Source: Chrysoperla carnea
Taxonomy: Eukaryota > Arthropoda > Insecta > Neuroptera > Chrysopidae
Reading direction: 5' to 3'
Assembly: GCF_905475395.1 (NCBI RefSeq)
Contig: NC_058339.1
Location: 18,174,001 to 18,238,000, forward strand
DNA: 64,000 nucleotides
The translations under genes and the position numbers were made by a program. The number at the start of each line of letters is the position of its first letter. The first letter of the stretch is position 1. This document shows, in pieces, positions 2,621-46,000 of the stretch. The notes under the pieces are model-generated. The model was given only the letters and a program-made list of their open reading frames with translations. It made no database searches and had not been told where the DNA came from.

Positions 2621-2622
2621 TA

Positions 2623-14534: not shown

Positions 14535-14998
14535 GACGAAGAAATTTAACACAAAAAACGTCAAAACCGCAGAAATTTCTAGAGTAATATGAATCGAAAT
14601 GCGGTTTTTGGCATTACTTTCCAGAAAGTATTTATAAACTTTGTGAATATTACAAATTATCTTGGGATAATTTCCCCAGTTTGTGCATTAAAAATGCATT
14701 TTTTGTTATGAACTTTTGTAAACAATTGTATGTACTGAACGGATTGAAATGGTTAATCGGTAGTTTTTGAGGTCGCTGAACACGAATCTGATGTCAAAAA
14801 AATTTCTCGGAGTGCTTGGGGACCTGAGCATCCTAATTTTAAAACCAGCTATTATCTTTACAAAGGAGGGAAATTATCTGCCGATAATCTGCAATGTTCA
14901 CAAAGTTTATAAATTACCTTCTAGAATCTAATGGAAAAATCCGCATCTCGATTCATTTTACTTTAGAAATTTTCGCAGTAAAATGTTAAATTTTCTTG
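14535..14998. mobile_element. MITE/foldback element with ~120-bp arms
   Basis: Inverted arms at about 14535-14665 and 14878-14998 share blocks such as GAAATTTAAC, GAAATTTCTA, ATGAATCGA-ATGCGG and TATAAACTTTGTGAA. The core of about 210 bp is non-coding. It ends about 200 bp upstream of the start codon of the PNPO-like gene, so it could overlap that gene's promoter or 5' UTR. Confidence 0.65.
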
Positions 14999-15201
14999 GC
15001 TATTTATTTAATAAAACTTGTTAACATACTTTTTAAAGTCTTTGTAATAATTCATATTTTATTTATTAAACAATTTTTTCAACTAAATCTTTAATTGAAA
15101 TTAATAGCATATAAATAAATAACTTTACAGTAAGTTTCATTTTTGAATCAAGTTTTCTTATACAAAGTGTTTACAAGTGTTTTAATATAAAATAGTTAAC
15201 A

Positions 15202-18200
15202 ATGACTTCCGAATGTGCAATATGGGATTTACGTACGGACGAAAATTTTTTTGGTAGAATTTTTTTTTAATTTTAAATATTTTAAGTTTTTTTGGAATTT
15301 AAATATTATTTTAATATATTTAATTATTTTGTTAAATTTTTTTTAACAGATTCGAAAAAAATCAATCATTCAAATTTATCACATATTGTTGTGAAATCAA
15401 GTAATCCAATGGATTTGTTACGTGAATGGTATCATGATGTCAAAAAATATGCAGACCCAAATTGTACAATGCCAAATCTAATGAATTTAGCAACTTGTAA
15501 TAGGTAATAAATCTGGACAATTTTAGAATGAAATTTTTTTTTTTTTTGTACAATCGTCGATAAAAAAAGTAAAGTCTTTTGTTTATAATTGCCATCCCAG
15601 ACCGAGAACTCATATATAGAAGTCCACAAAAAGGAAAATATCGAAGAGAGAAGTAAGTATTATTCTTTATTATTTTAGAGAAAATTTTGGAGGAACAAAT
15701 CTGTTTAAAACTTAAAAACTTTGATTAAAAATTTCGAAATTTCAAAATTTTACGTTTGTTCTGTCTGGATTACTTAAAAATAGAAATAAGAAGTCTGTAT
15801 AACTTAAAAGTAGAACTGCGTATTTTAAACGCGAAAATAATTTTTGATAGTTGCAAACTAGTAATTAGGTTTTAAAGTTTTGAACAGTTTCATTTCTTAA
15901 AAATTTTTCTGTAAAATAATAAATGATACCACTTCTCTCTTCTAAGGTTTTCATTATAAACATTTTGACATGTACTCTCGTTCTGGAATGACTGTTCTAA
16001 AACAACGAGCCTACTTTTTTGCCTTTTTCCATATTTCTACAAAATAAATGTCTAAAATTTCTGACAAAAAAATTCAAATACCCGTTTTCATTCAAAAAAA
16101 TTTGATCAATCCGGTTCATTTAAATATGTACCCAAAATTTCAGCACACAGGTGCTTTTTGTCTTGTACTCACAGTAATATAATTACATAAACATGCTTAT
16201 AATTTTAATGGTACGGGAAATGCAAGGAAAAAATTGGTGGGAAATGACTGAAGATTTGAAGGATGTACGAACGCTAGTGCAATTTTGGATAAAAGGCTTG
16301 ATTTTTTTAAATGATGTTTTAGAAAAGTTTTTCTAAAAATAATGGAAATTTGACGGATTAAATTTGGTCCAAAGTGGGAGAATGGAAGGTACAACGCAAT
16401 ATATCTACCCATTTTTCGCAAGGCAATCATATTGAAAAAGTCTCGCCGGGATTATTTCAATATTTGCAGGATTATATCTCCCCTGATTAAAATTTGAAAT
16501 CGAGTCTTAGTGCAGTCATTAAAAGCTTATTAGAAGTTCATACATTGTAGGGGTATTTAGATTATTTATACAATAAATAATTAACTCTGTCAGAAGTTCT
16601 CTTTATTTGTTTGGTGTATTTTATAGATAATTATTTTTAAATTTTATTGACAGTGATGGTGAAGTTCATGCCAGAAATTTATACATGCGACAAATTGTTA
16701 ACGACAATATACATATTATGACCGATCGAAGAGGAACTAAATGTAAAGATTTGGTAAGTAAGTTTGTAAAAGTTAGTTTCTATGGTAGGAAGCTGTAATG
16801 GCACCACCGATAAAAATCTACTACAGTGTTTTCATTGCTTCCCAATGAAATCTAACTGTTTTATATTTGTAAAAAATATATTTGGAAAATTTGAGAAAAA
16901 AATTAACTTAAAGTTTGGGTCAAATTTTTTTAGACATATTATGTTTTTTATAATATTTTTGCACACTGAAATATATATAAATAGAATACCATTAAAGACA
17001 ACTCAGAGTCAAGTGCGGATACATGACGGAGGGGGCTTAGAAAATTAATTTAATTATCAATTGGAAAAAATTTTTATTATTATTTTCTTAAATAGCTTGT
17101 CCAGGACTATAAGCCATTAAACTCATTAACAAAATATAAATACATTACATTCGATCAAATATAAATACATTACATTTAGATCAATAGTAAACCAGATGTA
17201 GCTGGTTCAAATCCGACTCGAAGAAACCTAATTTTTTTACCTATTTGCAGGTATAAACCTTTTAATAAAAAAATATTGTTTCAAACTACGTTGTATTTCA
17301 AAACAACAATATTTGAAATTTATATTAACTTAACAGTATATTAATAATCATACAAACTCATGTGTTTGTGTCAACTTCACCACTCAACCCCGTAAGCTAG
17401 TTGCATCTCGCTATGATGTTGAGAGAACCTCATATCTCGCTATGAATTTTTTTCAGTGTATTATCCTGACCAGGATCTCCAGAATAAACGATCGATAATC
17501 TTATTTTTATTACTTTAATAATAAATAATAACTTGAAATATTAACAATGAAGCAGCTAGGGTGCCTGCTCTTTATGAGGAAGGGCGTCAAATCGAAAGCA
17601 ACCAATTCACATAATTCGAATTTGATTGATCTAATCTACTTTGTTACCCAAAGAATAACACAACTTTCTGACTAGAAAATCCAAATTTTGTTATACCATC
17701 ACTTCCTCCCCCAAAAGCAATAAAAATATTTCTTGCCTTAGTTTGACCTAATCTGCCCCGCATATATATATAGTTCAATCGAAGCATAGTGTATCTATTA
17801 GCGATATTATTTTAACTAAAAGTTTACTTCACTAACGTAAACTGTAAAACTAACAAACTATGGAAAAAATTTTTACTGCGGCACTGATCAAATGCAATTT
17901 TACAATAATAATGATATCAGAATAAAAAAAAATAATTTTTATAGTGGACATTGTGTCACTTGACCTGTTTAACAAAATCCTATATCATCAGATTAAATTT
18001 AGCACAACAAGATAAAAAGTTCTTTCTTTTATGAAAATTATTTATTATGTAACAGCAGACAAGTGTGCTACGTTAATTCGTTGACAAAAAACGTCTGGGG
18101 AATATGAAAGTGAAACTTTTGAAAAAAAGCTTTCGATACTCATTTATTCAAAAATAAATAAAATAAAAACCCAAAAGTTTTGCTTTTCAACCCAAGTAAG

Positions 18201-19862
18201 TGGAGACTTTCGAATTTAGTTTTCAGGGCTTTTTTCCAAAAATTATAAAAATAGAAGGTGGCCTTGTGGCTAACTTCGAGCTGACAGTATATCCTAATTT
18301 CATGTCAACACAATACCATAACACAAAAAGGCCAAAAGTCTAAAAGAACCTTTGAAAAAATTTAGCCATAAATTTAGCTTAAAATCGAAAACATTGGAAG
18401 CTTGAGCGTATTTAGCTTTGGGCCTAGAGGTAGATCAAAAGGAGGGCATTCTATCTCTCCTCCCCACCATCAGAAAACCTATATTAATAAATCTTCAAAA
18501 ATTTGCTCGAAAACATAAAAAATGTTAAAAGTAAAAATTCCTTTCACAAAATGTTGGTTCCTAGAATTGTAACCACATAAAACAAAACAAAAATTTTGAA
18601 AGCATGCTTTGGTCCCAGAGAAAATAATGAGAAATATTACCCTTTAATGCCTTACATACTTATAAATGACAGCCACATTTCCAAGATCGAATCACAAGAA
18701 TGTATATTTTATAATATCTAATATTCAAATTGCAAATCTTTCTGTTTCAGATTGAAAATACAAACGTAGCTTGTACATTTTTCTGGTGTTTTACAAAAAA
18801 TAATATCAAGTATGCACGACAGGTAAATTAATAATATGACTAAAAATCCAATCACACTTTACGAGACGTTATAATGTAACTTTTCGTGGTAGTAAGTGAC
18901 ATTACAAGAGACCCGAGAAAAAATTGTTATACACGAAGATGCGTTCCATATATCTCCTAAGAGATGTTGGAGACCACTTCTCTTTCTGACGCATTATGCA
19001 CAAGTTGCTGTAGATTCATCGTTCTCTAGGTTTTTATATTTTCCATCCAAAAGAAATTCTTTTTCTACCTTTGGCTTTTGTAGACTGATGTTTCCCTAAC
19101 TGCTGTACATATAGTACTTGTCAGATCGCATGATGTGGCCAAAATACGAGACTTACCTTTGCTTAACTACCCTACCAGCTCTTGGTTTTGATTAATTAAC
19201 ATATTTATATTAACAAATGTTTAATTTTTTTATACTTATGTGTAGGTACGAATTCAGGGGATAGCCAAAGAACTAAATACAGAAGAAACACAAAAAATGT
19301 ATTCAAATGAACCTCTTTATTGTAAAATCAGATCACATTTATGTCATCAAGGTTTACCAGTTGAGTGGACGGAAGCAAAAGCAAAACACGATAAGATGTA
19401 TGAAGAAGTATTAGCGGGGAAAAATCCCTTACCCATGCCAGATCATGTGTAAGTCATAATTATATTGAGTTATTAATATCTTAAATAGTGAAATAAATAC
19501 CTACCCAATATTTGCAATAATTAAATCTGATTTAAAGCTTTGAGACTTTTATTTATGAACTGTTATGACTAATGAATTTAGTTATTTTAAGTTACTTTTT
19601 GGCAAAAAAATTAATTTACCGAGCTTATTTTGACTATTTCACGGTAAAAGAGAAATATACACTTGATCGTGATACCCCGGAAAGCTGATAATAAACAAAA
19701 TAGACAAATAATTATAAACGTATTTATTACATTTTTAGTGTTGGGTTTGAAATTGTACCGCATAAGTTTGATTATTATCAAGCTGATGGTGAAATTATTG
19801 GTGATCGAGTTGTGTTTGAAATGAAATGGGGAAAATGGGAAAATTATCATGTGTACTCATAA
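15202..19862 (+). CDS. Pyridoxine-5'-phosphate oxidase-like protein (divergent paralogue)
   Basis: Six phase-consistent exons: 15202-15253, 15350-15503, 16654-16753, 18751-18822, 19246-19448 and 19739-19862. They encode 234 aa, the usual PNPO length. The FMN-binding split-barrel pattern is recognisable in order: LATCNSDGEVHARN (about 65-76), MTDRRGTKCKDL (about 91-102) matching the family FYTNxxSRKGKEL, CTFFW (about 110-114) matching FYW, VRIQGIAKEL (127-136) matching VRVEG, and a C-terminal block ending GDRVVF (214-219) matching HDRIVF. Canonical PNPO oxidises pyridoxine or pyridoxamine phosphate to PLP. Here the residues that hold the substrate phosphate and ring are changed: the SRP Arg is Glu148, the following Ser is Cys152, and the RLH of RLHDR reads IIG (212-214). 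I therefore call it PNPO-like, with lost or altered substrate use (inference). The donor of exon 1 (GTAGAA) is the weakest junction. Confidence 0.85.
17178..17220 (+). other. tRNA-like A/B-box fragment
   Basis: GGTTCAAATCC matches the RNA polymerase III B box exactly and sits in a near-complete T-arm. TAGATCAATAG just upstream resembles an A box. The A-to-B distance is about 18 bases shorter than in a functional tRNA, and there is no anticodon arm or acceptor stem. It looks like a decayed tRNA pseudogene or SINE head inside intron 3 of the PNPO-like gene. A 26-bp direct duplication (about 17134-17184) overlaps it. Confidence 0.3.
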
Positions 19863-19906
19863 TCTCATATTGAATAGATTAAAATATGTATGTAATTAAT
19901 CGTTTT

Positions 19907-19912
19907 AATAAA
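19907..19912 (+). promoter_or_regulatory. Poly(A) signal of the PNPO-like gene
   Basis: AATAAA lies 45 bases after the stop codon, the typical position for a cleavage/polyadenylation signal. Confidence 0.6.
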
Positions 19913-19997
19913 AAGCCATTTATTTTTAGAAAAAATTGCATTTTTATTATTCCATGTTTTATTGATAATATTTGGTAAAATTTTTAGTATAAAGTAT

Positions 19998-21204
19998 AAG
20001 CAGCTAAAATCAGTAAATTATGAAGTTAAAAACCAGCAAATCTATAAATATATAGGAGACTTTCTATAGATATAGATAGATAGATAGATAGATAGTCACT
20101 CATCACGATATCTCTGGAACTATAAGACCTAGAGACTTGAAATTTGGCAGGAATATTCCTTTTGCCAAGTAGAGGTCAGCTAAGAACGGATTTTACGAAA
20201 TTCCACCCACAAGGGGGGTTGCGGGGGTGTTCATGAATAAAAAATTCATATTTTTCAATTATGGCTTTTAATAGTTCAAAACTTGGTAAGAATGTTTTAA
20301 ATTACATTTAGAAATTTTTTTAACCTTCGGAGGGTAGAAAGGTGTAGCGAGAAAGTGGGAAGGAAATATCGAATATTTACAAATATACCTAAGTGGGATA
20401 TCAAATAAAAGAGCATGACGTGTACATTACAAAACTGTTATCCAACGCAAGGAAATGTGGAGGGAGGGGTGCAAGTGGGGATGTTGCCCAGCAAAGCGGG
20501 CGGGTAACAGCTAGTAGTATAATATAATCTTACATACTTCAAACTTTAATGTCACGTTTGTATACAACCGTTAGTACAGTTTTGCTATGATTTTGCCTAT
20601 AGACAAATTTAAAAAGTTTAATATTTATGAATTCACATTTATCAAAGTTTTATATACCTAAATATTTTTTATATATTTTGTTAAAAAATTCTATGATATT
20701 ATTATTATTGTTTAAGCAGCTAAAATCAGTAAATTATAAAGTTAAAAACCAGCAAAAAATATAATATAATCTTACATACTTCAAACTTTAATGTCACGTT
20801 TGTACACAACCGTTAGTACAGTTTTGCTATGATTTTGCCTATAAACAATTTTAAAAAGTTTAATATTTATGAATTCACATTAATCAAAGTTTTATATACC
20901 TAAATATTTTTTATAAATTTTGTTAAGAAATTCTATGATATTATTATTATCATTGTTTAAGCACCTAAAATCAGTAAATTATGAAGTTAAAAACCAGCAA
21001 ATAATATAATATAATCTTACATAATTCAAACTTTAATGTCACGTTTGTACACAACCGTTAGTACAGTTTTGCTATGATTTTACCTATAGACATATTTAAA
21101 AAGTTTAATATTTATGAATTCACATTTATCAAAGTTTTATATACCTAATTATTTTTTATGTATTTTGTTAAGAAATTCTATGATATTATTATTATTATTT
21201 TTAT
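19998..21204 (+). repeat. Tandem array, 3 units of ~243 bp
   Basis: Units begin near 19998, 20714 and 20959 with AGCAGCTAAAATCAGTAAAT or a close variant. They share TAATGTCACGTTTGTA and GTTAGTACAGTTTTGC blocks. Unit 1 is split by a 474-bp Helitron; removing it leaves about 242 bp, against 245 bp for unit 2. The units are over 90% alike by eye and non-coding. Confidence 0.9.
20041..20514 (+). mobile_element. Complete short non-autonomous Helitron
   Basis: It begins TCTATAAATATATAGG after an A and ends GGTAACAGCTAG before a T, which is the Helitron A^T insertion rule with 5' TC and 3' CTAG. A GCCC...GGGC hairpin sits about 12 bases before the 3' end. A (GATA)n run lies near the 5' end, followed by CACTCATCACGATATCTCTG, a block I recognise from insect Helitron-type repeats. 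There is no Rep/helicase. The intact neighbouring tandem units give the empty site, so both borders are fixed to the base. Confidence 0.88.
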
Positions 21205-25400: not shown

Positions 25401-28400
25401 TCGGTGGACAAACTGCTTTAAACTGTGGTGTTGAATTAGAAAAAGCAGGAGTATTTAAAAAGTATGGTTGCAAAATATTAGGAACTCCTATTCAATCAAT
25501 TATAGAAACAGAAGACCGTAAAATGTTTGCAGAAAAAGTCAATGAAATTGGTGAGAAAGTCGCACCAAGTGCTGCGGTTTATTCTGTTGAAGAAGCTTTA
25601 GAAGCTGCTAATGTTATTGAATACCCTGTAATGGCTAGAGCTGCTTTTTCATTGGGTGGTTTAGGATCAGGATTTGCAAATAATAAAGAACAATTGAAAT
25701 CTTTAGCAGTACAGGCTTTAGCACATTCTAATCAGTTAATTATAGATAAATCACTCAAAGGATGGAAAGAAGTTGAATACGAAGTAGTTAGGGATGCATT
25801 TGACAATTGCATAACTGTGTGTAATATGGAAAATGTAGATCCGTTAGGAATACATACTGGGGAATCGATTGTTGTTGCTCCTAGTCAAACTTTATCCAAT
25901 CGTGAATATAATATGTTAAGAACTACTGCCATAAACGTTATCCGTCATTTCGGAGTAGTTGGTGAATGTAATATTCAATACGCTTTAAACCCACATTCAG
26001 AAGAGTATTATATTATTGAAGTAAATGCACGTTTATCAAGAAGTTCTGCTTTGGCAAGCAAAGCAACTGGTTATCCACTAGCTTACGTGGCTGCCAAATT
26101 GGCACTAGGAATTTCACTAGTTGATATAAAAAATTCAGTTACTGGTGAGACCACAGCTTGTTTTGAACCTAGTTTGGATTATTGTGTGGTAAAAATTCCT
26201 CGCTGGGATCTCAGTAAATTTGCCCGTGTCAGTACAAAAATAGGTAGTTCAATGAAAAGTGTTGGAGAAGCTATGGCAATTGGTAGAAAATTCGAAGAAG
26301 CATTTCAAAAAGCATTGAGAATGGTTGACGAAAATGTAATGGGTTTTGATCCACGTTTACAAAAAATTAATGAAGAAGATCTAAAAGAACCAACGGATAA
26401 ACGAATGTTTGTACTTGCTGCTGCTTTAGATGCAAATTATTCTGTTGATTATTTGCATGAATTAACGAAAATTGATTGTTGGTTTTTACAAAAAATGAAA
26501 AATATTATTGATTTACATCAATTATTAGGAAAATTAGATCAACAATCTGTTTCCAGAGAAATATTATTACAAGCAAAACGTTATGGTTTTTCTGATAAAC
26601 AAATAGCCAGTATTGTGAAAAGCACGGAACTTAGTATACGAAAACAAAGAGCAGAATCTGGAATATTACCATTTACAAAACAAATTGATACTGTTGCTGC
26701 AGAATGGCCAGCTACTACAAATTACTTATATTTAACCTACAATGCATCAACTCATGACATAGAATACCCTGGGGGATATACAATGGTTATTGGTTCTGGA
26801 GTTTATCGTATTGGTAGTTCGGTTGAATTTGATTGGTGTGCTGTCGGGTGTTTAAGAGAATTAAGAAATCTCAACAAGAAAACTATAATGGTTAATTATA
26901 ATCCTGAAACTGTGAGCACAGATTACGATATGTGTGATCGTTTATATTTCGAAGAAATATCATTTGAAGTAGTTATGGATATTTATAATTTAGAAAATCC
27001 TGAAGGTGTAATATTATCAATGGGTGGTCAATTACCGAATAATATAGCCATGGATTTACATCGACAACAAGCAAGGATTTTAGGATCATCACCTGAATCT
27101 GTTGATGGTGCTGAAAATAGATTTAAATTTTCTCGTATGTTAGATCGTATTGGTATTATGCAACCAAGATGGAAAGAGTTAACTAATTTAGAATCGGCAA
27201 TCAAATTTTGTGAAGAAGTTGGATATCCATGTTTAGTTAGACCTTCGTATGTTTTAAGTGGTGCCGCAATGAATGTTGCTCATTCCAATCAAGATTTGGA
27301 AACGTATTTGAATGCAGCTAGTGATGTTAGCAAAGAACATCCAGTTGTTATTTCTAAATTTTTATTGGAAGCGAAAGAAATTGATGTAGATGCAGTTGCT
27401 TGTGATGGAACCATATTATGTATGGCTGTATCAGAGCATGTAGAAAATGCTGGAGTACATTCTGGAGATGCAACTTTAGTAACCCCACCACAAGATATTA
27501 ATAAAGAAACTTTGGCTAAAATAAGAGCTATCTGTAAAGCGATAGCTGCGTCACTGGAAGTAACAGGACCGTTTAATATGCAGTTAATAGCAAAGGTACT
27601 CTAAATTTATAGATTCTAAAAATGATTTTATTTCATTTTGATTAATAAATTGAAAAAAAAAATTTTAATTGACAGAATGTCAAATTTGTAATATTAAATA
27701 GTTAAAAATTATTTTATTTTGTAGGACAATGATCTGAAAGTAATCGAATGTAACGTTCGAGTATCTCGGTCATTCCCATTTGTGTCAAAAACATTGAATC
27801 ATGATTTTGTGGCAATGGCAACACGAGTTATTGTCGGAGTTCCAGTTGAACCCGTTGACGTTCTTCATGGTTGTGGAAAAGTTGGCGTTAAAGTACCTCA
27901 GTTTTCATTTTCTCGTTTATCTGGAGCAGATTTCATGTTAGGTGTAGAAATGGCATCCACAGGTGAAGTTGCTTGCTTTGGTGAAGATCGTTATGAGGCG
28001 TATTTGAAAGCAATTATGAGCACTGGATTCAATATTCCAAAAAAATCTATTTTATTATCAATTGGTAGTTTTAAAGTAAATTAATTTTTATTTTAAAACC
28101 TTGGCAGAATTGGATTATTGTAAACATGCTTTATTTTTTTAGCATAAAATGGAATTATTACCAAGTATGAGATCTCTTAGGCATATGGGATTCAAATTAT
28201 ATGCTAGTATGGGAACGGCTGACTTCTACAACGAACATGGAGTTGATGTAAGTTTTCAGTCCTATTTATTTTTAAAAATGATGATCCTTTTTTGTTCGAG
28301 GGTAGTATGTAAAAAAAATTAAAGTAAAAAAATACTATATATCACAGATTATAATTTATTACATAAATAGATAGGCAACTCTACTGTACATAAAATGTTG

Positions 28401-31400
28401 TCCAAAAAGGCCCCTAGATTAAGGCACTTACAGTGAACTATTAAAAAAAAAATTGCGGGAATTAGGTACTATTGAAATAATTTTTAGAAGTTCTGCAATA
28501 GAGTTTAAATTTTTTCGGATTAACACAATAATATAAATAATCACAGTTATTAAATACACTCCAACACTTAGTTACTACATTTACAATTCAGTACATTCAA
28601 ATTCTTCAGAATCTTCGCGGAGAATAATTGAATTTACGTTTGATCTTGTTTGCCCACTATTAGATCGTAATGTAATTCTTGAATCCAATTTGTTTGCAAT
28701 AATAACATCATCATCTGGGCTACTTTCGTTTAAACATTTCGTATTGCCATAATTTAATCGACTTGAATATTCATCTTGTAGAGTAATAACTTCTTGCCTG
28801 GTGTTTTGTGGAATTAATGTCTTGTTTTGATTTTTCTGATCAGTCTCAATATTAATATTTTGCTGAATTTCATTCAAGTTTTCATTACTTTTTGAATTTA
28901 GATGAGTTAAATAGACGTCATTTTTCGTAGGGGCTTTTTGAAGGATGTCTTTTTCTGATTTATTTTCTATAACAATATCTTGATTATCTTCTTCCTTTCG
29001 TTTGTTGGAATTTAGAACAGCTAAGTAGTCATCGTTTAAGGTAATTTCTTCTTGGATTCTTTTTATTTTACTTAAAGTATCGGTTTTTGAGGATAATATT
29101 GAACTGTTGTTTGATTCGTTAAGAATTTCAAAATGTTTTTTATTATTCTCATCAATTTTTTGATTAATTTCATTGAACTTTTCGTTAATACTTGAATTTG
29201 GATGTTCGTCTTTTGGTGCAACATTTTTTCGAGGAAGTTTCCGCCTCGAATTATTTTCAATATCTTGATAAACTTCTGTACGCTTGTTATAATTTAGACG
29301 AGCTAAATAGTCATCGCTTACAGCTATTTCTTCTTGGTTTTTATTAATTTCATTTACCGTGGGATTTTTTGATAATGATATTGAACTTTTAGTACTATTT
29401 GTTTTATTTGGTTCCTTATTTAAGTCAGAGATTCCTAAATTATTCTGATTTGAATTATTTTCGATTTCATTAACACTATTTTTACTCCCAGAATTTAAAC
29501 GCGTTATATAGTCATCATTTAAAATAATTTCATCGTGCACGCTTTTAGTTTTTTCTGCGATATTCATTTTTGAAACATCCTTTTTATTTTTACCAGATTC
29601 TTCATTATCATCAAATTTTAAAGTATCTGAATTATTCTCATTTGAAGTAACTTGTTTTTTATTTGAAGAATGTACATCAACTTGTACTATTAATACATTT
29701 TCAAATGACTTTTCTTCTGATATTTTTCTATTTTGATCGATATCAATTTTATTATGTTTTCCTATTTCAGTTTGACTTTCAACCGCTGTATCTTTTATTT
29801 GCTCTTCTTCTCGTGTATTGAAATGATGTTTTTGTTTCAATTTTTCGTAATTTTCAATTTCTGTTAATTTTGATTTTTCAAGTATTTCATCCACATTAAC
29901 ATAATTGGAACTGGTCGTTGATGCTTTTGGTTCATTAATAATACCTGTATTTTTTATATTTCGATAACTTTGTGATTGACCTTTTCTAGACGGTAACTTC
30001 GGTACATTTTCCTCTTGAGCAAGAGTTATTTTTAATAATTCTTCAACTTTAGAAATGTGCGAAAAATATTCAATGCTATCTTCTTGTCCCGATGGCATTT
30101 CATTTAGTAATGTATTTAAATTTTTTGCTTGTTGTAAATACATAAGTCCTTGGTGCGGATTATTGAATTCATTACTTTTTCTTGCCATTTCAATAAAGTG
30201 TTCAACAAATAGTTTCAAAACGAACATTTGTTGCATCGTATCCATTACACGTACTGGTTGAGTCTATGAAGAAAATTGTTATTAATACGAAATGTAGTTT
30301 AATTAATTAATTAAGGACCTATTTTAGGCCATTTACAAACTTGTATTGGGAACCGATATTTGTAACGTGCAACATGATTGTCACAAACGTGAATTAAGAA
30401 CGTTTTATAGATATTGATGTGACGTTAAAATTCCTTCGAATCAATAATAGAAACGAGTATAAATATTTTCACCGACCTTTTGTAGTATTATTTCCATAAG
30501 TTATTGTAAATAGTAAATGAACAAATTAAAATTTGACAAACAAAATATATTTCCTTATGTCCAGACTACATGAGGCAGGTTTTTCAAGCCAGAGCATTAA
30601 CATTAACAAGAGTTTAATTTCCGTAAGATTTTTGACGTGCAGAATCTGAATCTGAGGAAATTATTGTCTGTCAAATTCAAATGATAATGATATTGTCCAC
30701 GCTTAGAGACTAATTTAGATGTTTTGCCGTTCTAGACTGGCTTTGACCATGCCGCTCTAGCAATGTAAATTTTTCACCTATACCTGAATTTAATTTTTTT
30801 AGAATGTCTAGTATTTGTGTCAAAAATGTTAAAATGAAAATATCATGTTGAATAACGTACCTCTGTATTAATTGAATCGCTAGAAATACGACGTTTACGT
30901 TCTTTTTTTTTCTTTTCAATTTCTTTCTCCTCCATTCGTTCACGATAGGCATCTCTGAACCATCTTTGTTCAGGGTCAAGTTCATCCCCCGATGAGCTTG
31001 ATTCATCTAACTCTGTATTTGTCATTGCTAATATTGGGTTAATCATCTGGAGAATATTATTATTACTCGATGTTAAAATTGTATATAATCTCTTGTAGTC
31101 TAACATTGGGTAAAAAGAATCCTTCCTATATTTTAAATTTCGCAACGCTCTTAATGTATACATCACTGGATTTTCTAAGATATCAAGTATTTTTCGATGT
31201 GCAATCATTAATCGATTTTCCGGAATATTTTCAAACAAATTTCGTGTTGGAATAAAGTAATCCGGCAATTCACGATAGGCTAAATGCCTTTGTAAATTTC
31301 TTAAAAATACTATCATTTTTTCACCCAAACGGTTCTCAGGCCATCGTACATAATCTCGTTCGCATTCCCAAAATAAGTGTGTTCTTATATGATCAGCAGT

Positions 31401-34400
31401 CAAACCTAATTTATTATCTTTGGATTCAATGAAACTCTTAAAATAAGTTAGTGTTATCAAATAACATCGAACTTGTGCATGATGTAAATGTGATTCTAAA
31501 AATCGTTCAGCCACTGGAAATTGTAATCGCCACTGTAAGTCTCGATTAATATTTTCACCCCGCTTGGGATAAAATCCAATTGGATAAATATAGCTAGGGA
31601 ATGATTTCACTCGACTTATCATTCCTGGTGTTGGCCAACAATATGCTGTTTGTGTTTTTGCATCTTGAATTACTGGACGAGTGCGTAAACTCCATTCGAA
31701 AGCTTCATCTGGCCACGAACTTGTTACTGTTGGTATCACTTCATAATTAGTAACATGTTTAGTTTCTTTATCAATCACATCTATGTAAATTATTGCACTT
31801 TGCATCACTGCGAATTGGATATGTTTTTGGGTAAATCCTAATTTTTTTCCAATGTATTGAGGAAACGTATCACCAAAATAATCATGAAAAGCTATTGAAT
31901 TTAAATAAACAATCTTGTTGTAAAGTTTATGCTTTTGACGTAACATCATTTGACGACGAAATTCATTTTTATCTGGATATTTTTCACGAAGTTTTCGTTT
32001 TTCTTCTTCTTCTTCAATTTTATCACGATACACTTTTACTTGAACTGAGGTTATACAGTTACTTGGCAATCGGATGATATTAGTAAGTGAGGATGATGTT
32101 TTTCCACTATCCGTGGTATCAATCTTAACTTGTTTTAATGGTTTTGCTGTATAATGGTTGGTTATTGTGCTATATCCATAGTCTGATTCTTCAGGTATGT
32201 TTTGTATTATCATTTGTTGTTTTGAAAGACTTAATTGCCTTATTAAAGGTTGTTTTTCATTTGGTAATGGGATCGGGGAATCTACAAAAACGTCATCATT
32301 TAAGTTACTCTCATTTCCATCTACGTCATCAAAATTATTCTCTTCATTTACGATTTCGTCAGAATTGTCATCAATTTTAATTATCTCTTTCTTTTCTATT
32401 ATTTTTTCAGGATTATTTGGATTACTCATTTTACGTTTTACTTCAATCTCTTTCAATTTTAACTGCACGTATCCTCTTAATTCAGTACCTTCAATAACAC
32501 ATTTATAGATCGGCCCATCTAATGCACTACTATATTCTGCAGTTTCACTTGGATTACGTACCTCAATATTATCATATGCTACTAATATTCGTTGTCTATG
32601 CAATGTTTCGGTATAATATTTCGCAGCACCATGTTTGGGTTGAAAACAGACGTTTGTGTCAATTAATTCATGTAAAGTGTCTGGCATTAAGCAATGTTTT
32701 TGTTCTTTACTTAGATCAGTATTAATTTTATTTTCTTTGCTTGATATGTTGCTCATTCTTAAATCGGCTATATCTCTGCAAAAATTAAAGAAAGGACCCT
32801 GTGATAAGGCGGTTGTCATAAAAACGGAGGTTAAACCCCCCTTTATTATTATTATTAAATATGTGAAGTCACTTTCGAATTCAAGGAGAATCGAATGATA
32901 TCTTATTTATTAAAAACCATCAAACCTTTTAGGCAACAGAATGAGACGAAGAAAGAGAAACACAAACATATGTAAATACGTACAAACAATAAACATACAT
33001 TTAAAATCAACAATCAATCATACTTACTTTTCATAATTATTAAAAAATTGTATCGATAACAATAAATTATTCAAAATAAATGTTGGTGCATCATGGTATA
33101 ATTGTCGTCGCATTTTTGCTAAATTATTATCTTCTGTTTTTTGCGTATTAGATGGTATAATCGGTGGTAAATTTTGTGGCATCTCAGGTGTTTTTTTAAA
33201 TTTATTTTTCGAACCAAAAATCCCCATTTTATTTCACTGTTGTATATCCCAAAAAGGTTTTGTTTCACTAGGTCAAACTAGTCATTCTAAATGAAAGTTT
33301 TGCACTGTATGATTTAATAAAAATGGTATTTTCGTTTTAAGTATGTATTTTATTGATAGGATAGTATTAGTGATATCTAATTTTTTATCTGTTTTAATCA
33401 ATTTTTATAATCAAGTGTAGTGTGTACTCAAACACTTGTCCTTTATGATGTTCGTTAGAATTATTTTATATTACTAAGTATTAGGGTATTTACGTGGCTA
33501 TTATCGACTCATTTAAACCTTATTCTTAAGAATTTTTAAAACAAAATCAGGTGTGGAACACTTAAACAACCTCCATATACATATGTGTACAATTTTTGAA
33601 ACTTGTTGTAAGTCTTCATAAATAACACTCGTTGAATTGATACAAGAAAATTACAAATGATTCGCCAGGTTTTTAAGTCTGGCAGCTACAAAACTATAAT
33701 GCATTTTGTTTATACTAATAATCAATTAGCTATCCCTTCTAAGTTAATTGACATCTTAAACCTAAGCAGTGATGGAACTTTTTGATCTCTCGGAAGTTTC
33801 AACGCAAAGGTCGGAAGAAAAAAAGGAGAAAACACAGTTCATTGCTATCTTAATTCTGCTGGAACTAATACACAATGAATTTTTTATAATGAGAAGCGAC
33901 ATAATTTCTAAATATCCATGCCAAAATTAGCAATTGCTGCCCAACTTGGTCCCATATAAGCCACGAGCCCCAGTGCACAAACTTCCGATAAAAATTTCCT
34001 GATGAAGGTACTTAACTATATGGAGGAAAGTGTTAAGGTTTTACTATTTTCTGGATTTGTACCTCGAATATTTCGTATGTACATAATAGTAATTAAGTCT
34101 ATGTTACATCCATACTTGCACATGGATGTAACATAGATAAAATTTTACCAAATTCTAAAATGTGAATTTTAATCTCAAAAATAAAACCGTTTTAAAACCG
34201 CAAAAGTTTTATAATTGATTTCATTAATGAAGAACAAAATATTTTCACTGTTTTATTTGGAAAATAGAATTTGGGTCAATTTTTATAAAACTTAAATCGA
34301 TAGAGCTACGATTGTCTTGGTAAATGTAGCAAATTTATGCAATTTTCGTGCGCATATAACTCCAAAAATAATTATCCCAACATAAGAAAATTTGGCATTC

Positions 34401-37400
34401 ATAATCTGAACATAAAAACGCAGGGTAAAACACAGTCTTTTTCTGTGGAAGAACTGTCGTTTTCGTGTTCAGATTTGGGAATACATATTTTGCTTTAAAT
34501 TCCAATTCAAGTACACAATTTAAAAAATGTAAAAATATTTCCGTTTCTTCAAATTTCACAGAGATAAAATTAAGTTAATTAAAGTCTTTAATAGATATTA
34601 TCATCGAGTTATATAGAATTAATTTTTTTAAAGAATTACTAAAAAATATAATATGATATTTAAAACAATAATTTATTTTACTAATTTTTTAACAATAATT
34701 TTCATAAAATTAAAAGATTATCAAGTAAGATTAAAATTTTCATAAAATACGACATAATATTAAATAATGGAACTGTTCACAAAATTTTATATTAATAAGT
34801 GAATGTTTTTATTTACTCACCTGCACAGAATATGCGAAATATCTGCGAAAAATGATCCCATACAGCTTAATCGAATGTGTGTACATTCAAATTTATGAAA
34901 ATTTAGCTCAAAAATCATTATCATCACCTACCGCTTTGTTGCGAGTATGGAATGGATGGGAAAAAATTTTGCATTTATTTTTACGATCTTAAAAAGTGTA
35001 GGAAGAAGCTATGCTAAACTTGTTATTTTTTCAAGGTAAAGCGTTATTCAGCGTTGTTATACGATCGCTTTTTGATCGAGTTTTTAATTGTCAAAGCGAA
35101 ATTGATACTTTTGATTTGAAACTACTGTATCTTCTAGAATAAAGAGTCTTTTACGACTCTCTGACTGACCTTAATATTTCTAAAAAAAATCTTTTTTTTC
35201 TTTAAAAGAAATTGAGTACATTTTATTCACTTTTTATAGAAAAAATTTTAAACTAGTTACTTCTCTCTAATGCATGAAATCATAAAAAAACTTGCTGCTG
35301 AAGCTCTTTGTTGAATAATGTTAATAATTTATAACTTCCATAAACAGTTATCAGAGAAATATTTGATCCAAACCAACGAAAAAACTATGAAGTTTTTTCG
35401 TTCAATATTTATTTGAACAATTTTTTATTTCAGGTTGAATCGGTGCAATGGACATTCGAAAAAATCGATGATAGTGCTAGCCAAGGTGAATTAAAGCATC
35501 TAGCCGAGTTTTTATCGAATAAAAAATTTGATATGGTTATTAATTTACCTATGCGAAATGGCGGAGCACGACGTGTTTCAACATTTATGACTCATGGCTA
35601 TCGAACACGACGATTAGCTATTGATTATTCTATACCTTTAATTACTGACGTAAAATGTACAAAACTTTTAGTTGAGGTAATCAATTTTAATTATACCTTT
35701 TATTTTAAAGTATTATTAATTTCTAACTAACTCTAAATATTTTTAAAAGGCTATAAGGAAGATAGGATTTGCAAAATCACCACCAATGAAAACTCACACA
35801 GACTGTGTTACTTCGCGCGAAGTCATAAAACTGCCTGGATTTATTGATGTGCATGTTCATGTCCGCGAACCTGGTGCTGAACATAAAGAAGATTATGCTT
35901 CTTGTACAGCGGCTGCTTTATCTGGAGGTGTTACACTTATATGTGCAATGCCAAATACTAATCCAGCTATTGTCGATCATGAAAGTTTTGATTTAGTTCA
36001 AAAACGGGCTCATGCAGGAGCTCGATGTGATTATGCAATTTTTGTTGGAGCATCATCCACAAATTTTAATACCATACCCGAATTAGCACAGCATGCAGCT
36101 GGTTTGAAAATGTATTTAAATGAAACGTATACCACTCTGAAATTAGATGACTTAGGCATTTGGCTAAAACATTTTACTAACTGGCCAAAATGGGCACCTC
36201 TATGTGTTCATGCTGAAAGTCAAACAACAGCAGCTGCTTTACTTTTAGCCACATTTCATAATCGTCCTATACACGTTTGTCACGTTGCTCGTAAAGAAGA
36301 GATTCAAATTATTAAAGCCGCAAAAGAAAAAGGATTGAAAGTAACTTGCGAAGTGTGTCCACATCATTTATTCTTATCAACTGATGACATTGAAAAAATT
36401 GGTATAAAACAATCTAGTGTGAGGCCAGTTTTGGGAACTCCAGAAGACGTAGAAGCATTATGGGCTAATCTTGATATCATAGATTGTTTTTCAACAGATC
36501 ATGCTCCGCATACAGTTGAAGAAAAATCTGGAGAAAAAGCTCCACCTGGTTTTCCAGGCGTTGAAACTATACTTCCATTATTACTAAATGCAGTTCATGA
36601 AGGGAAGTTAACACTAGAGGATCTTATCGATAAATTTCACAGAAACCCTAGGAAAATATTTAATTTACCTGAGCAACCGAACACTTATGTTGAAGTGGAT
36701 ATGGATGAAGAATGGATTATTCCAGAAGCTATGCCATTTAGTAAATCAAGATGGACTCCATTTGCTGGGAAAAAAATTCGTGGGGCTGTACAACGCGTAG
36801 TTTTAAGAGGTGAAATTGCCTATGTCGATGGTCAAATATTAGTTCCACCGGGATACGGACAAGATGTACGTAAATGGTCAAATAAAAAAATATATACTAC
36901 ACCAGAAAAAAGAGTTAGACATAAAAGTATTGGAGAAGATGATCTCCGGTTATCTGCTGGAAATTTACCAGATAGTCGTCCTTCTTCAGCATTAGATTTT
37001 CATACATTTTCTGAAAAGATATTTGAAGAGCAGCCTGATAGACAAACAAATGAAATATTTTCAAATCTACTTTCGGAAAGACCAAAGTCTGCTGTTCACT
37101 TCTCTAGAGAATTTAATGTTGATTCTAGAGATTTTATGCGAAGTGGTGGATATCGTAGTACTTCACCTATTCCTTTCGCAAATTTACTTCGATACAAAAG
37201 TGAAAGCAATCCAAAATTAGCAATTGAACCGATTGTCCATCATACAGCTAATTTTGATCTGACCGGAAAACATATTTTAAGTGTAGATATGTTTTCAAAA
37301 GAGCAATTGAATGATATATTTAATTTGGCGGAATCATTTCGGAATTATGTAACAAAAGATCGCCCATTAGATCATATTCTAAAAGGCAAAATAATGGCTT

Positions 37401-38640
37401 CTGTATTTTATGAAGTTAGTACACGTACCAGTTGCAGTTTTTCAGCGGCAATGCAACGTCTTGGTGGTCGAGTTATTGATATGAATGAATCAAGTTCATC
37501 AACGAAGAAAGGTGAAACACTGGAGGATTCAATATCAGTTATGGCTGGATATGCAGATGTAGTTGTTTTAAGGCATCCACAGCCTGGTGCTGTAGGGGTA
37601 AGTAATAAATATAATATTCCACAAAAAAATGACGATAACCCGGTACCATTCGGGTTCAAGTTTTGTTTTTTCTTTTTCTGTTAAATTGGAGTCCGCGTCA
37701 TTAATAACAGTTGTAAAAGGAAACATATTACTCATTTTTATGAGTGTGTCATTTTTTTTTATGAGTGTGTCAAAATAAATCAACGTCTATTTTGTAAACA
37801 TAATTCAATTTATTTTTCAGAAAGCTGCGCAGCATTGTCGTAAACCTTTAATTAATGCTGGTGATGGTGTAGGCGAACATCCTACGCAAGCTCTACTAGA
37901 TATTTTTACCATTCGAGAAGAAATTGGTACTGTTAATGGTTTAACGATAACATTAGTTGGTGATTTAAAGAACGGCCGAACAGTACATTCGTTGGCACGC
38001 TTATTAACTTTATATAATGTACAATTGAATTACGTTAGTCCTGCTGGTCTGGGTATGCCTCATCACATTATGAAGTATGTAGCATCGAAAGGAATTCAAC
38101 AACAGGAATATAATAGTCTGGAACAAGTATTACCTGATTCAGATGTTCTCTATATGACTAGAATCCAACGTGAACGTTTTAATACTCAAGAAGAATATGA
38201 TAAGGTAGGTTGATTGAAGTTTTTTTTTGCTACTGATGTTCTTAATCCAAATTCAGAATTTAACCATTGTTTTGAGGAAAATCTGAGTAGAGAGAATACT
38301 TGAAGGGGAAATGCTTAATATGTATGTGTCTTTGAAAGTATTTATTACTCAAATGTCCAGCTATAACTTAATGAAAATAGTCCTTCGTAAAAGTCTCTAT
38401 TTAACTTTGTACCGTTGAATTAATAAACAATTTTTTTTAAAGGCTTGTGGTCACTTTATTGTTACACCTCAATTAATGACACGTGCGAAAAGAAAAATGG
38501 TTGTAATGCATCCGTTACCAAGAGTGTTTGAAATTAGTGCTGAATTTGATACAGATCCACGTGCGGCATATTTCCGTCAAGCTGAATGTGGAATGTATGT
38601 TCGAATGGCTTTATTAGCGATGGTGCTTGGAAAATGTTAA
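22411..38640 (+). CDS. CAD: CAD trifunctional pyrimidine-biosynthesis protein (rudimentary)
   Basis: Eleven coding exons: 22411-22522, 23440-23578, 24065-24341, 24400-24737, 24796-27595, 27725-28075, 28143-28247, 35434-35676, 35750-37597, 37821-38204 and 38443-38640. All junctions are GT/AG and in phase. The product is 2264 aa (animal CAD is about 2225). It carries out the first three steps of de novo UMP synthesis in the cytosol. Domains: glutaminase (1 to ~380) with nucleophile Cys271 in GICLGHQ and partners His355 and Glu357 in FHPEH; two-lobed carbamoyl-phosphate synthase with ATP-grasp halves (about 390-1330); the MGS-like allosteric domain (about 1330-1455); dihydroorotase (about 1475-1820) with HVH at 1490-1492, carbamylatable Lys1575 in [12 protein letters not shown] and STDHAPHT; a Ser-rich linker; and aspartate transcarbamylase (about 1955-2264) with STRT at 2012-2015, a TKKGE loop and HPTQ at 2091-2094. 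The C-terminus ends like other CADs. Nothing is missing. Intron 7 (7.2 kb) hosts an antisense gene. Confidence 0.97.
28581..33227 (-). CDS. Mab-21-domain protein with myristoylation-type N-terminus and repeat tail
   Basis: Three exons on the minus strand: 33227-33028, 32775-30861 and 30263-28581, all GT/AG and in phase, giving 1265 aa. It lies wholly inside CAD intron 7, antisense to CAD. The start [12 protein letters not shown] fits the N-myristoylation rule (Gly2, Ser6) followed by a basic cluster. The Mab-21/cGAS-like fold is recognisable from about residues 140-600: [12 protein letters not shown] (411-422), WPTPG (about 447), [14 protein letters not shown] (482-495), then the helical part HLFWECE...LGEKM...YFIPTRNLF (about 533-580). 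An acidic, disordered insert (about 175-320) splits the nucleotidyltransferase half. Residues 620-700 are highly charged ([15 protein letters not shown]). The tail (712-1265) opens with a helical segment, then is Asn/Ser/Lys-rich with five DDYLxRLN-type motifs near 955, 1022, 1116, 1154 and 1202. Function unknown. The closest named groups are Mab-21-like and cGAS-like proteins, but the catalytic acidic pair looks lost (ELR at 165-167). A candidate poly(A) signal (minus AATAAA) is at 28355-28360. Confidence 0.85.
34098..34137. repeat. Perfect 16-bp hairpin in CAD intron 7
   Basis: TCTATGTTACATCCAT and its exact reverse complement are separated by 8 bases. The pairing is perfect and stops abruptly at both sides. 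It lies between the nested gene and CAD exon 8. It could be a tiny foldback insertion or an RNA hairpin; nothing in the sequence decides. Confidence 0.9.
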
Positions 38641-40087: not shown

Positions 40088-43000
40088 CTAGTTTATATCC
40101 GCTGTGGGAGAAGTAATTACAATTGCAGCTGGTGTTGTTGATGCATTTTCATTATCCATTTGATTAGCTATTGAATCCGTATCATTATCTACATTTCTTC
40201 GTAAAAATTTGGGTATTCTTAAACGTAAACTTCGCCTTGGCTCACCGTCTCGATTTAAAGTTCTGAAACAAAATATTTTATTTAAATTATATATTAATCT
40301 TAAATGTCCTCTTCAGGGACATTGATAATTGAATTTTTCTGAACCGTTTTTTTAAATATCTATAATAGCTTTCAGGTAAATTACCTTTTTTATTTCAAAA
40401 AGATAATTTAAAAAGATTGAAAAAGTATCATCTACATGCGAAACATAAATTACAAACATAATTGATAGTAAAATATATACATACTGATGTCTACAATCGA
40501 TAAATATCGCCATTCCAAATAAACCAACAATTGCAAAAAGAATTCCAACAACTAATACTGCGACAGTTGCTATACCAGCTGCATCATGTGCTGGTAGAGG
40601 AGTAGCTCCTGGTGCGCTTGTAGATTTTTCAAATATATCTATAACAAAAAAAAGGGCAAATATAAAATGTGCATAAAAATTACTACAGGAATGGAAATGC
40701 TTCAAAGAAACGGTTTAAGAGAGATCAAGAAATTGTAATTTTTAAATAGGACAGCGAAATGGGTTTCAGACCTCCGAACAATTATCGGCACAGCCGAATA
40801 GACCTTCCACAGCGAATAGACATTCGCACAGTTCGTCTGAGAGAGCGCTCTTTTTAACCTTATGACTACTGGGCTTTTCAAATTTTTTTACACTACATGA
40901 TAACTTTTGTCCCAAATGCGGGACATTAATTTTTAAAATGACTTTTTTTCGGTTATACCATCTTGTTTTGATTTCTGTAAGCTCTATTACAGAAATAAAC
41001 CTTTTTTTAAGTAAAATATGTCATTATCATCTCATTTATGGTATTACAACAATAAAATAATTGCATGTTTAAACAAGTGTTTGTTGTGTCATTCAAAGTG
41101 TGTTATTCATATAAGTGATTAAAGCGTTTTTTCGAAGGAAATCTGACGAGTTTCGTGAAAATTTTCATAAAATTGATTTTTCAAATTATTAAAATAAAAA
41201 CTATTAAAAAAAAAAATTAGAATTTTTTTATAATATTGTGATTAGAAAGGTTTTAAAATTAATGTCCCATATACTGGACAAAGTGAATCATCGGTTGTAA
41301 ATAAAAAACATGTACGTATTTTATGTATATCAATATTTTTGAATTTATATCTAAAAATTTATGTTTCATCTAATAATTTGTTGATTATTTTTGGCAGAAA
41401 AATGGCCAGAAAACCTTTAAGCTCCAACGATATTCTCCAAATGTTGGAATCAGGCAATGTATCTGACATAGATTTATCGGAGGATGATGAAGAAGATCTC
41501 ATTGAAATAGCAGATGACTCTTTAATTTTTAACGACCCTGCATTAATTGGTAGAAGAGAAAATTTTGTAAGAGTAGGGGCGGATGTGATTCATAATAATC
41601 AGACCGAATTGCCTGAAGATTTAATTTTTGAAGAAAGTGACGATGAAAGTTCTAAAGAAAATATAGATACTTCGAACAAGCAAATTTCTACAAAAGCAGC
41701 TAAAATAAAAATACAGTGGAAAAAAGCTGAATTTCAAATAAAAAAACTGGACGCATGGGACAATAGTTTCGAATGCGAAGAAGTTGGGTCTCCAATTTCG
41801 TATTTTAATAAATACTTGCCCGCTGAATATTTTTCGGAAATCGCCCAATATACAAATATGTATGCCTTGCAGCTAGATAAGAAGGGGTTCAAACCTTGCA
41901 AAGAGCAAGAAATAAAAATTTTATTCGCGTTGCACATGATGATCTTTTGAAAAAAACTGTTTCAAAAGTTTTCACTTAAATAAATAATTTTCATTTTCGT
42001 TTATTATTTTTGTTTTGTTTCGTATACTTTTTTTATAAATATTTTTGTATTTTCCCTGTAATTATTTTGAATTTTATAAGAATAAAAAATTTATTTTAGA
42101 ACATATTTAAATAAATATATACAATCATTTAACAACCATAGACAACCAATGTCCCAAATATGGGACATTTTGAAACATGATAAGTAAATCATTTTTTTTT
42201 AAATTTTACGTTATATATCCCTTATTTAAACTAATAAAATTAAATTTTAACAAAAAAAAAATTTTTTTTTCATTAGACAAAAATTTGGTACTCTGGGCAC
42301 CATAAATTTTTTTGTCCCATATACGGGACACCAGTAGTCAAAAGGTTAAGTAGTTTGTTTGCGAACTACACAAACCTACTAATTTAATTATACACTGTCT
42401 GTAGGTTTTATACCATGTATATGAAATATACACAGTATATTAACTTTAGTCCCAAGTTTGTACGCTTAAAAACATTGATGCTACGATAAAAATTTTGGTA
42501 TAGGTGTTTATAGAATCACCTAATTAGTCCATTTCCGTATGTCTGTCTGTCTGTCTGTCGTCTGTCCGCCTGTCATCACGATTACTCAAAAACGAAAATA
42601 GATATCAAGCTGAAATTTTTATTTTGTGCTTAAGACGTAAAAAGTGAGGTCGAGTTCGTAAATTAGCAACATAGGTTAATTGAGTCTTGGGTCCGTAGGA
42701 CCCATCTTGTAAACCGTTAGAGATTGACAAATGTTTAAATGTAAAAAATGTTCCTTATAAATAACTTTTGTTTGAAACATTTTCTTGTAAACATCACTGT
42801 TTACCCACGAGGGCGCTAATTAGGTGAAAATTTTGTAGTATGTATTAATATGGGAATATCAGTTAAGTGTGGGTGGCTATTTAAGAGTGGAAAGGTTTCT
42901 TTATTTACGTGACGTCAAAAAACAAACGATTGCGTCATCAAAACTGTCTATACATGGTATTTCAACAATTAACTCGGTCAATTGTTTGTTTTCACTTGTT

Positions 43001-46000
43001 TAAGTATATTATTTTGTTATTTCATTGCCTATCATTTATTGTTTACCGAGTTAATCAATTAATTACTAAAATTAAAATTTATTTGTATGATTTTATAAAA
43101 TAAACATCACAATACAAAAATTATTATTATTAAATTAGACGTGCTCAATAATATTTATTATTTTTAATAATATTAATAATTTTTCACAAATATAGTAATT
43201 TTGTTATTTATTTATTTAAACTAATTATTAACTAAAATAATACATATCAAAATAATTCATTGTTATTGTTTAATAAAATCAAATTAAAAACGGATGTTTA
43301 TACAATTTATGTATTTGACAAAAAATTATACTCTCAAGTAGCTTAAAACGGATATGGGAGGATTTTCGTAAAAATAAACTTTTTGTCCTGAAGTTTACCT
43401 TGAATTTGATTTTTTTAGGTAGTTTGATGATATGTTATATAAAAATCATACAATTGTTGTAATTAAGGATTGTGTTTATATTATTAAAAATTAACTATAA
43501 TTATATGATAAATAATTCGTCAAGGTTGTATTTTTGTACCTATGTGGATCATTAGGTAATATATTTTATATAATAGGTAAATTTGATAAAATTTAATGAA
43601 AACCGTTTTTAATAATTAACAGAAATTTTTCAAGTTTTTAACGTTAACAGAACAGCTTTACGAACAAACTTTTATAAACTCTAAGATAATATTTCAAATA
43701 TTTTCCGTTGAAAATTGAAATCGTAATAAAAGTTTTATTCTATAATTAAGTTTTTGTTCTAAGCTTGAAATAACTGCGATTGATAAGAAAAACGATTTCT
43801 TATATGTCATAACTGTTATATATTTGTTGATTTGTAGAATTGAAGCGAAAAAAAACTGTCTTTAATTCAATGATTTGATCATCTGTGTTGCTATTCTTCT
43901 ATGAGAATGAAAATTGTATATGCTATATGGTGAGTAAACCGAGTTTAAAGGAAGTAATGCAAATGGGTGGGTGGAGGGGTGTGAGAAGGTTTGGTGAAGG
44001 GATTTGTTTATCTGCTTGCTTATACGAATGGGTATCTTTGTGCTCTGGAAATGAACATTGGTTACTTTGTTTTCTGACAATCAACAACTTAAAAGGTGAA
44101 GAGCAACATACAGCTTTTTAAAAAAAAATATTACTCTTCTGAACTTCTAACGGAATTGGAACTTCGTTTCAAGTTAAAAATATTATTTCTCATTAAAAGT
44201 TTCAAAACATTTTCAATCGGAAGAGAAACAATTTGTCCAAACAAATGCTGCTGGTTAAATAAAGTTTATTATAATTAATATTAATATTTTATACAATAAT
44301 TTAAATAAATAATTTCTTTTTCGGAAGTATAGTCTAGACTTCTAGAGACGAAGAATCTAGAGGTTTTTGTTCAAAGCGTTTTTTATTTTCTATTATCATT
44401 AATGAAAATGTAGATATATCTCTTCCAGACATAAATAAAACTAACAATTCGAAAAAAAATAACGTGACCGGAAAACAAATATTTGAATAGTCTCATTATT
44501 TTGGAAAGTGTCGCATCGGTTTCAAGGTATATTTATTTATGCATTTATTTAAGAAGATATATGCATAAATAAACAATAGGATGGAATTTTTAAAATTAAA
44601 AAACATATGTACAAACAATATGTTTTCAGTAATATCTCAGAAAATATTTTGCATTTCAGGTTAAAATATGCAAATACAAAAATGTGAGCGAAATAAAAAT
44701 CATCGGAAATATCATCATTTCCCATTAAAATATTTAATTTGAATAATAAAGATAATTAAAATATGTCGGTATTCAAAACATACAGGTGACTTGTCTCATT
44801 ATTCACTTTCGCAATCTTTATAAATTTTCCTAGGCACATGTTCGTAGTGACGTAACTAGGCGAGTGCAACAAGTGCACTTTTTGACCGCCATTGAAAAAT
44901 TTGTAAACTTTTAAAAACGAATTTCATAATTTAAATACGATAATAATTATATATCTTAAACTATTGAGCTCCCCCTACCGTTGTTTAAGGTTAGGTACGT
45001 ATGAGCCCAGTGACTGAAGTACCTACGTTTTGCTCCTGCTTCCCTTTTGACCCCTGTATAGGGGAGTATGAACTGGGAATACTATATTAGCATACATTAT
45101 ATTATATCTTAGGGTTGTAAATATTGTATTTCGAGTGTAGCTAGAACCGATACCATTAGCCATGGCAAAGATCACCATGACATCCCCCACTCCTCATTGA
45201 TCTCTTTTTGAGGGTCTAAATTTCAATACATACCTATATACATAGCTGTTTTGAAATTTGTAAATAAACAAGTGAAATCAAAGAAATAACTGAGTTAATT
45301 GCTGAAATACCATGGCGAGACAGTGTTGACACCACACGACTGTGGTGTCACACATACATTACTGATATTCCCATGTAATACATAGTATAATGTTCTAATC
45401 TAATTTGCAACCTCGCGGGTAATCAGTGATGTTTACGAAAAAATGTTTGAACCAAAAGTTCCTAATTTTTTTATAAGGAATATTTTTTATATTTAAACTT
45501 TTGTTCTATTTCTAACGGTTTACAAGACCCAATTGACCTGTATTGCTCATTTACGAACTCAATATTACTTTTTATGTCCTGAGCACGCTATAAATTTTAG
45601 GTTGAAATCTCTTTTAGTTTTTGAGTTATGATGTTAACGAATGGACTGACAACCGGAAATGGACTACTTATTTGATTTTATGAACACCTATACCAAAATT
45701 TTGTTCGTAGCATCAATATTTTTAAGCGTTACAAACTTGGGACTAAACTTAGAATACCTTGATATATTTCATATATAGGTATAAAAATATAAAAGGCTTA
45801 GATTTATAAATCGGGTACCCAATTTTCACAGATTGTTTTTGAAAATATAAAATGTCATGCAATTATTTTAAATGAGCCGAGTCGCCGGTATTTTTTGAAT
45901 GCCGATATACATATTTTCGTTATTGTTATCCAAATAAATTATTTAAATTACGAATTTTCAAGGTTCAAAAAAAATTTGTTTTTTTGCAACAAAATAATCA

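Follow-up and report, generated by a model that had tools for sequence, protein, structure and literature searches.

The window analysed here, a stretch of 64,000 nucleotides (nt) from the neuropteran Chrysoperla carnea (assembly GCF_905475395.1, contig NC_058339.1, positions 18,174,001 to 18,238,000; G+C content 28.5%), contains an antisense gene nested within the pyrimidine-synthesis gene CAD. On the minus strand, from window position 33227 to 28581, three exons of 200, 1915 and 1683 nt join in frame to give 3,798 nt, that is 1,265 codons and a stop, and both introns are of the GT-AG type. Exon 1 (33028..33227) encodes residues 1-66 and two bases of the next codon, and an in-frame TGA sits 9 nt before its ATG. 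Intron 1 (32776..33027) opens with the donor AAAA/GTAAGT and closes with the pyrimidine-rich acceptor TTTTTGCAG; exon 2 (30861..32775) is followed by intron 2 (30264..30860; donor AGAG/GTACGT, acceptor TTCATAG) and by exon 3 (28581..30263), which holds the stop codon. A candidate polyadenylation signal, AATAAA on the minus strand at 28355..28360, is the first of three between 28600 and 28100. The entire coding region lies in a single host intron on the opposite strand (28249..35433, plus strand; 7,185 bases, phase 0), the seventh when counted over the CAD exons identified by visual inspection of the reading frames. This intron splits the MGS domain, of which profile positions 1-34 fall in the CAD exon ending at 28248 and positions 37-94 in the exon starting at about 35434. 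The host is identified as CAD because the plus-strand P0001 and P0002 match the carbamoyl-phosphate synthase and the amidohydrolase/carbamoyltransferase domains of Pfam.

The frames of the two long exons of the nested gene run without a stop for 687 and 560 codons; elsewhere (window 1-20000 and 45000-64000) the longest such runs are 117 and 105 codons. A codon score, trained on the window's own CAD exons, takes positive values in the annotated frame of each exon (+0.118, +0.212 and +0.200 for exons 1, 2 and 3) and negative values in the five other frames; the forward frames of both introns, three in each, are negative as well. The score of exon 1 is equalled or exceeded by 0.14% of 20,000 random 200-mers from window parts taken as non-coding. 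The long stop-free runs and the frame-specific codon scores, together with the Mab-21_C match described below, place the gene beyond chance. The three-exon gene of 1,265 residues, predicted originally to lie antisense within CAD intron 7, is thus confirmed at the level of sequence, with exons that join in frame and with plus-strand CAD exons on either side.

The encoded protein can be placed firmly, by sequence comparison, in the Mab-21/cGAS superfamily, which includes the immune sensor cGAS. The HhH/H2TH-like domain Mab-21_C (PF20266) is matched at residues 512-596 (31188..31445, minus strand; C3:18205188-18205445 in the scan of the own genome) with an E-value (E) of 6.6e-13 and 49.1 bits, the Pfam cut-off being 24.1, and sequence comparison with the PDB returns cGLR1 (8gjy; 7.4e-9), MB21D2 (7lt1; 3.1e-8) and MAB21L1 (5eog; 1.1e-6). 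In a profile comparison with hhalign, exon 2 residues 350-536 reach a probability of 94.7% against three own-genome relatives, and among the best candidates scored the own-genome matches to exon 2 are its own place and a mab-21 gene on C4 (26% identity over the matched part, E=5.5e-5). The Mab-21 profile search proposed beforehand as a check therefore gave a significant match, but in the Mab-21_C half only: the Mab-21 nucleotidyltransferase domain PF03281 is unmatched in the nested protein at E<=10, Pfam recognises no domain in it besides Mab-21_C, and NCBIfam gives no match. Of the Mab-21/cGAS-like fold that had been proposed, the part resting on Mab-21_C and the PDB matches stands, whereas the catalytic lobe looks degenerate. 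Two PDB matches to residues 1-178 (E 0.76 and 1.3) and a single weak PADLOC match (E=0.019) were taken as chance, and no relatives were found in the viral and prokaryotic contig collections, from 9 and 98 pattern matches, respectively.

In the same genome PF03281 has six places, the nested gene not among them, and PF20266 also has six, the nested gene among them. They correspond to a pair of mab-21 genes on C4, a gene at 87.4 Mb on C3, the nested gene itself and a C1 cluster of five exon-sized places, three of them PF03281 and two PF20266. The cluster, at C1:105.37-105.39 Mb, is made up of exons of the cGAS-like receptor (cGLR) type (L004, L005, L006, L011 and L012), and L004-L006 retain the signature GSY[YF][DE]G...DEYDLD; judged by these sequences, it probably comprises several cGLR genes. 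The two mab-21 genes (L001 and L002, C4:28.10-28.12 Mb) are about 13.7 kb apart, a pair that fits the mab-21 duplication reported for insects (PMC1784063).

Exon 2 encodes the nucleotidyltransferase lobe (lobe 1), an acidic insertion (about residues 181-344) and the Mab-21 C-lobe. Lobe 1 was aligned in three MAFFT modes with the insertion, residues 181-344, omitted. All three modes place EYSSAL of the nested protein opposite EYDLDL of the cGLR-type genes (in these YDGLKVGKPD and, past a gap, EYDLDL), and where EYD has its second acidic residue the nested protein has a serine (E147-Y148-S149). Two of the modes leave the GS of the activation loop opposite a gap, and the remaining one pairs it with AK. 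The local alignment of residues 95-182 was compared with 2000 shuffles at two gap costs for L003-L006: the lobe 1 score is equalled or exceeded by 0 of 2000 shuffles at both gap costs for L004, by 0.4% and 0 for L005, and by 0.3% and 0.05% for L006. A third carboxylate may be provided by E412 (NYEVIP aligned with SIDIVP; 0.55% of shuffles equal or exceed the score). The pattern printed for cGLRs, h[QT]GS[X8-20][DE]h[DE]h[X50-90]h[DE]h (PMC9980059), is absent in its strict form from the nested protein, although this form does not discriminate, since the own-genome genes, with VGS or AGS, would not fit it either. When the pattern is loosened so far that L003 fits it, its sole occurrence in the nested protein is at residue 964, outside the domain and within the tail. 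Since the GS loop is missing and EYD reads EYS, the nested protein is probably a pseudoenzyme. The related MAB21L1 is reported to keep a partial triad, and its authors failed to observe activity (PMC4897736).

Exon 3 encodes a polar tail, probably disordered from its composition, which has no Pfam or NCBIfam match. It contains five copies of the motif D-x-Y-x-x-x-L-N, a new feature that the original prediction did not mention, starting at residues 955, 1022, 1116, 1154 and 1202. The corresponding minus-strand stretches hold NDDYITRLN (29454..29549), SDDYLARLN (29253..29348), NDDYLAVLN (28971..29066), NDVYLTHLN (28857..28952) and QDEYSSRLN (28713..28808). Of all four-residue patterns that fit within nine positions, D.Y...LN was the most over-represented in residues 721-1265, scoring 12.4 against a maximum of 7.3 in 60 shuffles; a pattern composed after seeing the copies occurs 5 times, against at most one occurrence in each of 10,000 shuffles (65 of them had one). 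Copies 2 and 3 are held by a 118-nt direct repeat, 74% identical (28991-29108 and 29273-29390), so duplication accounts for at least part of the growth of the array. In the 14-codon motif cores the proportion of nonsynonymous differences (pN, 0.15-0.40) is below that of synonymous differences (pS) in 10 of 10 pairs, which are non-independent, and in the 20-codon flanks, where pN is 0.49-0.72, it is below pS in 7 of 10 pairs; this pattern is supportive only. Five matches of the tail-motif profile to the PDB, at E 2.4-2.9, were discarded.

The N-terminus fits the myristoylation pattern PS00008, with Gly2, an allowed Ile3, Ser6 and a residue other than proline at position 7, and four lysines are present in residues 7-12. 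The Gly2/Ser6 pattern and the basic patch that had been noticed at the start of the protein are thus both there. With residues drawn at this protein's own frequencies, the pattern would arise at residue 2 with a probability of 0.0035, or 0.00096 if Ser6 is included, and at least four lysines or arginines would fall in residues 7-12 with a probability of 0.0048; all three values were computed after the fact. By sequence this is a good myristoylation-plus-basic motif, not proof of acylation.

These features suggest a divergent Mab-21/cGAS-superfamily protein that would act as a non-catalytic, membrane-tethered scaffold, a reading to which we give about an even chance. The initial methionine would be removed and Gly2 myristoylated, and the KNKFKK patch would strengthen binding to acidic membranes. 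The Mab-21 core would bind a ligand or a protein without making a nucleotide product, and the five motifs on the flexible tail would engage several molecules of a single partner with avidity, perhaps when the tyrosines are phosphorylated, an idea prompted by the acidic residue that stands two places before the tyrosine in each motif. More tentatively, the protein could be a lipid-tethered, catalytically dead Mab-21 adaptor, in which the cGAS fold is no more than a binding module and the five tyrosine motifs recruit several copies of a partner.

A protein-binding role gains credibility by analogy, because shrimp LvMab21-1 (1,042 residues) is reported to bind IKK-epsilon and not to make cyclic GMP-AMP (PMC12928593), and MB21D2, an orphan member of the superfamily, is reported to bind E-cadherin intracellularly (PMC7718949). 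LvMab21-1 is, like the nested protein, a long arthropod Mab21 protein, a likeness drawn from its published description only. Human MB21D2 is the second-best PDB match by sequence; its C-lobe is similar over query residues 407-548 of exon 2. According to its description, however, MB21D2 retains a Gly-Gly loop together with a putative catalytic triad (PMC8410604), whereas the nested protein lacks both and carries the tail repeats.

Several observations weigh against the scaffold reading. The lobe 1 alignment with L003 is equalled or exceeded by 16% and 8% of shuffles, the three genes that do give support, L004, L005 and L006, are members of a single cluster rather than independent cases, and the shuffle test was limited to L003-L006, without the mab-21 genes. 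When the insertion is retained, MAFFT aligns lobe 1 with the region after it, and the alignment of the catalytic site therefore depends on omitting the insertion. No lobe 1 match was obtained with hhalign, in which the first 162 residues of exon 2 reach a probability of 0.4% against the three relatives, and AlphaFold2, given exon 2 alone and without an alignment, yielded no usable model (mean predicted local distance difference test score 33.3, predicted template modelling score 0.21). In the tail, the first motif pattern was composed only once the copies had been seen, and the windows for pN and pS were centred on the conserved part, the cores having been picked for conservation. Finally, 9.1% of the 175 random 200-mers that are open equal or exceed the codon score of exon 1, so that this exon is the least secure of the three, and its comparison with the N-termini of five relatives from the own genome gave nothing significant (shuffle fractions from 0.59 up to 0.99).

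In proteomes at large, methionine-glycine starts conforming to PS00008 are no rarity, and the Gly2/Ser6 pattern could be coincidental. The protein would then be a soluble cytosolic or nuclear Mab-21-type protein that works via protein partners, like MAB21L1 or MB21D2, both of which are among its best PDB matches. This is a serious possibility, if one we would hold to be true in a minority of cases only, and it has to contend with the low chances of the pattern and of the basic patch under the protein's own composition, which are, as noted, after-the-fact figures.

The membrane anchor proposed for the scaffold would also be lost if exon 1 were non-coding, as translation would then start at a methionine in exon 2, with no myristoylation signal. 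Exon 1 is supported by its splice sites and codon usage only, similarity adding nothing, and the frame of exon 2 remains open for 132 nt further upstream, with a methionine. That extension, however, has a coding score of -0.151, compared with +0.118 for exon 1, and the good donor, the pyrimidine-rich acceptor, the frame kept across the intron and the in-frame stop 9 nt before the ATG all argue for exon 1, making a start in exon 2 unlikely.

It is very unlikely, on the sequence features at hand, that the protein is an active cGAS-like receptor which makes a cyclic dinucleotide, signals to STING and is recruited to the membrane by acylation. The genome does have the cGLR-type exons with GSY[YF][DE]G...DEYDLD as well as STING ligand-binding fragments, and E147 and E412 may retain two carboxylates. 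With cGLR1 (8gjy) and the own-genome cGLR-type genes the nested protein shares the superfamily and the C-lobe, and its lobe 1 is recognisable against L004-L006, but in the alignment it lacks the GS and the EYD aspartate. The loss of GS, the replacement of the catalytic aspartate by serine in all three alignments, the unmatched PF03281, and the loose active-site pattern that L003 fits and the nested domain does not, all speak against activity; with GS and aspartate missing, catalysis was rejected as the principal reading. The STING fragments themselves are two pieces of the ligand-binding domain on one strand (L015 and L016, C5:7.797-7.799 Mb; E 2.0e-8 and 7.2e-7), the first of which crosses two stops; because of these pieces, a cGLR-STING pathway may be present in Chrysoperla carnea.

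That the nested gene is a decaying or unexpressed copy, as its strong divergence and degraded catalytic site might suggest, is hardly credible in view of 1,265 stop-free codons, frame-specific codon use in three exons and consensus splice sites.

As to precedents, MiD49/51 are membrane-anchored, and in Drosophila we take CG15865 to be the likely counterpart of the nested gene, an unconfirmed guess. The rarity that the original prediction claimed for its arrangement is overstated: MAB21L1 and MAB21L2 are reported to be nested in introns of NBEA and LRBA, and the DANGER members D1A-C, D2B and D3A to have predicted signal peptides or transmembrane regions (PMC1784063), while OAS2 is reported to be N-myristoylated, with the G2A mutant losing Golgi localisation and antiviral effect (PMC13372824). 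The nested pairs are the subject of Tsang et al. 2009, as cited in PMC10732462. CG15865 and CG7194 are named as fly DANGER sequences (PMC1784063), and CG15865 is merely listed in a fly RNA interference table (PMC8582830). MAB21L1 and MAB21L2 resemble the nested gene in the Mab-21 fold and in nesting, but their hosts are NBEA and LRBA rather than CAD, and they have about 360 residues against 1,265. OAS2 combines the nucleotidyltransferase fold with an N-myristoyl anchor, but it belongs to the OAS branch of the cGAS/DncV-like nucleotidyltransferases, not to Mab-21. Neither a myristoylated Mab-21 protein nor a Mab-21 gene in CAD appears among the literature matches listed (titles and abstract starts). 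Nesting, membrane targeting and acylation thus each have a precedent, and what would be new is a Mab-21 protein that combines acylation with a motif array. Several Mab-21 relatives are without a settled function; if the proposed reading is true, the lost active site, the acyl anchor and the countable motifs would give a handle on a role of the fold other than cyclic dinucleotide synthesis, and recruitment by acylation, already known in the OAS branch, would be added to the Mab-21 branch.

That the gene lies antisense within CAD probably has no bearing on its function, and the nesting is of little interest alone, as intronic genes are reported to make up about 6% of Drosophila genes (PMC3786989). 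On the plus strand, one open frame of 645 codons (35747-37681) spans the CAD amidohydrolase and carbamoyltransferase matches. The window has no Rfam matches at gathering scores and no tRNA. Downstream of CAD, at 41246-41947 on the plus strand, a reading frame with an acidic stretch matches DDE_Tnp_1_7 over its first 49 positions (E=2e-5); it looks like the truncated 5' end of a transposase, presumably of the piggyBac type.

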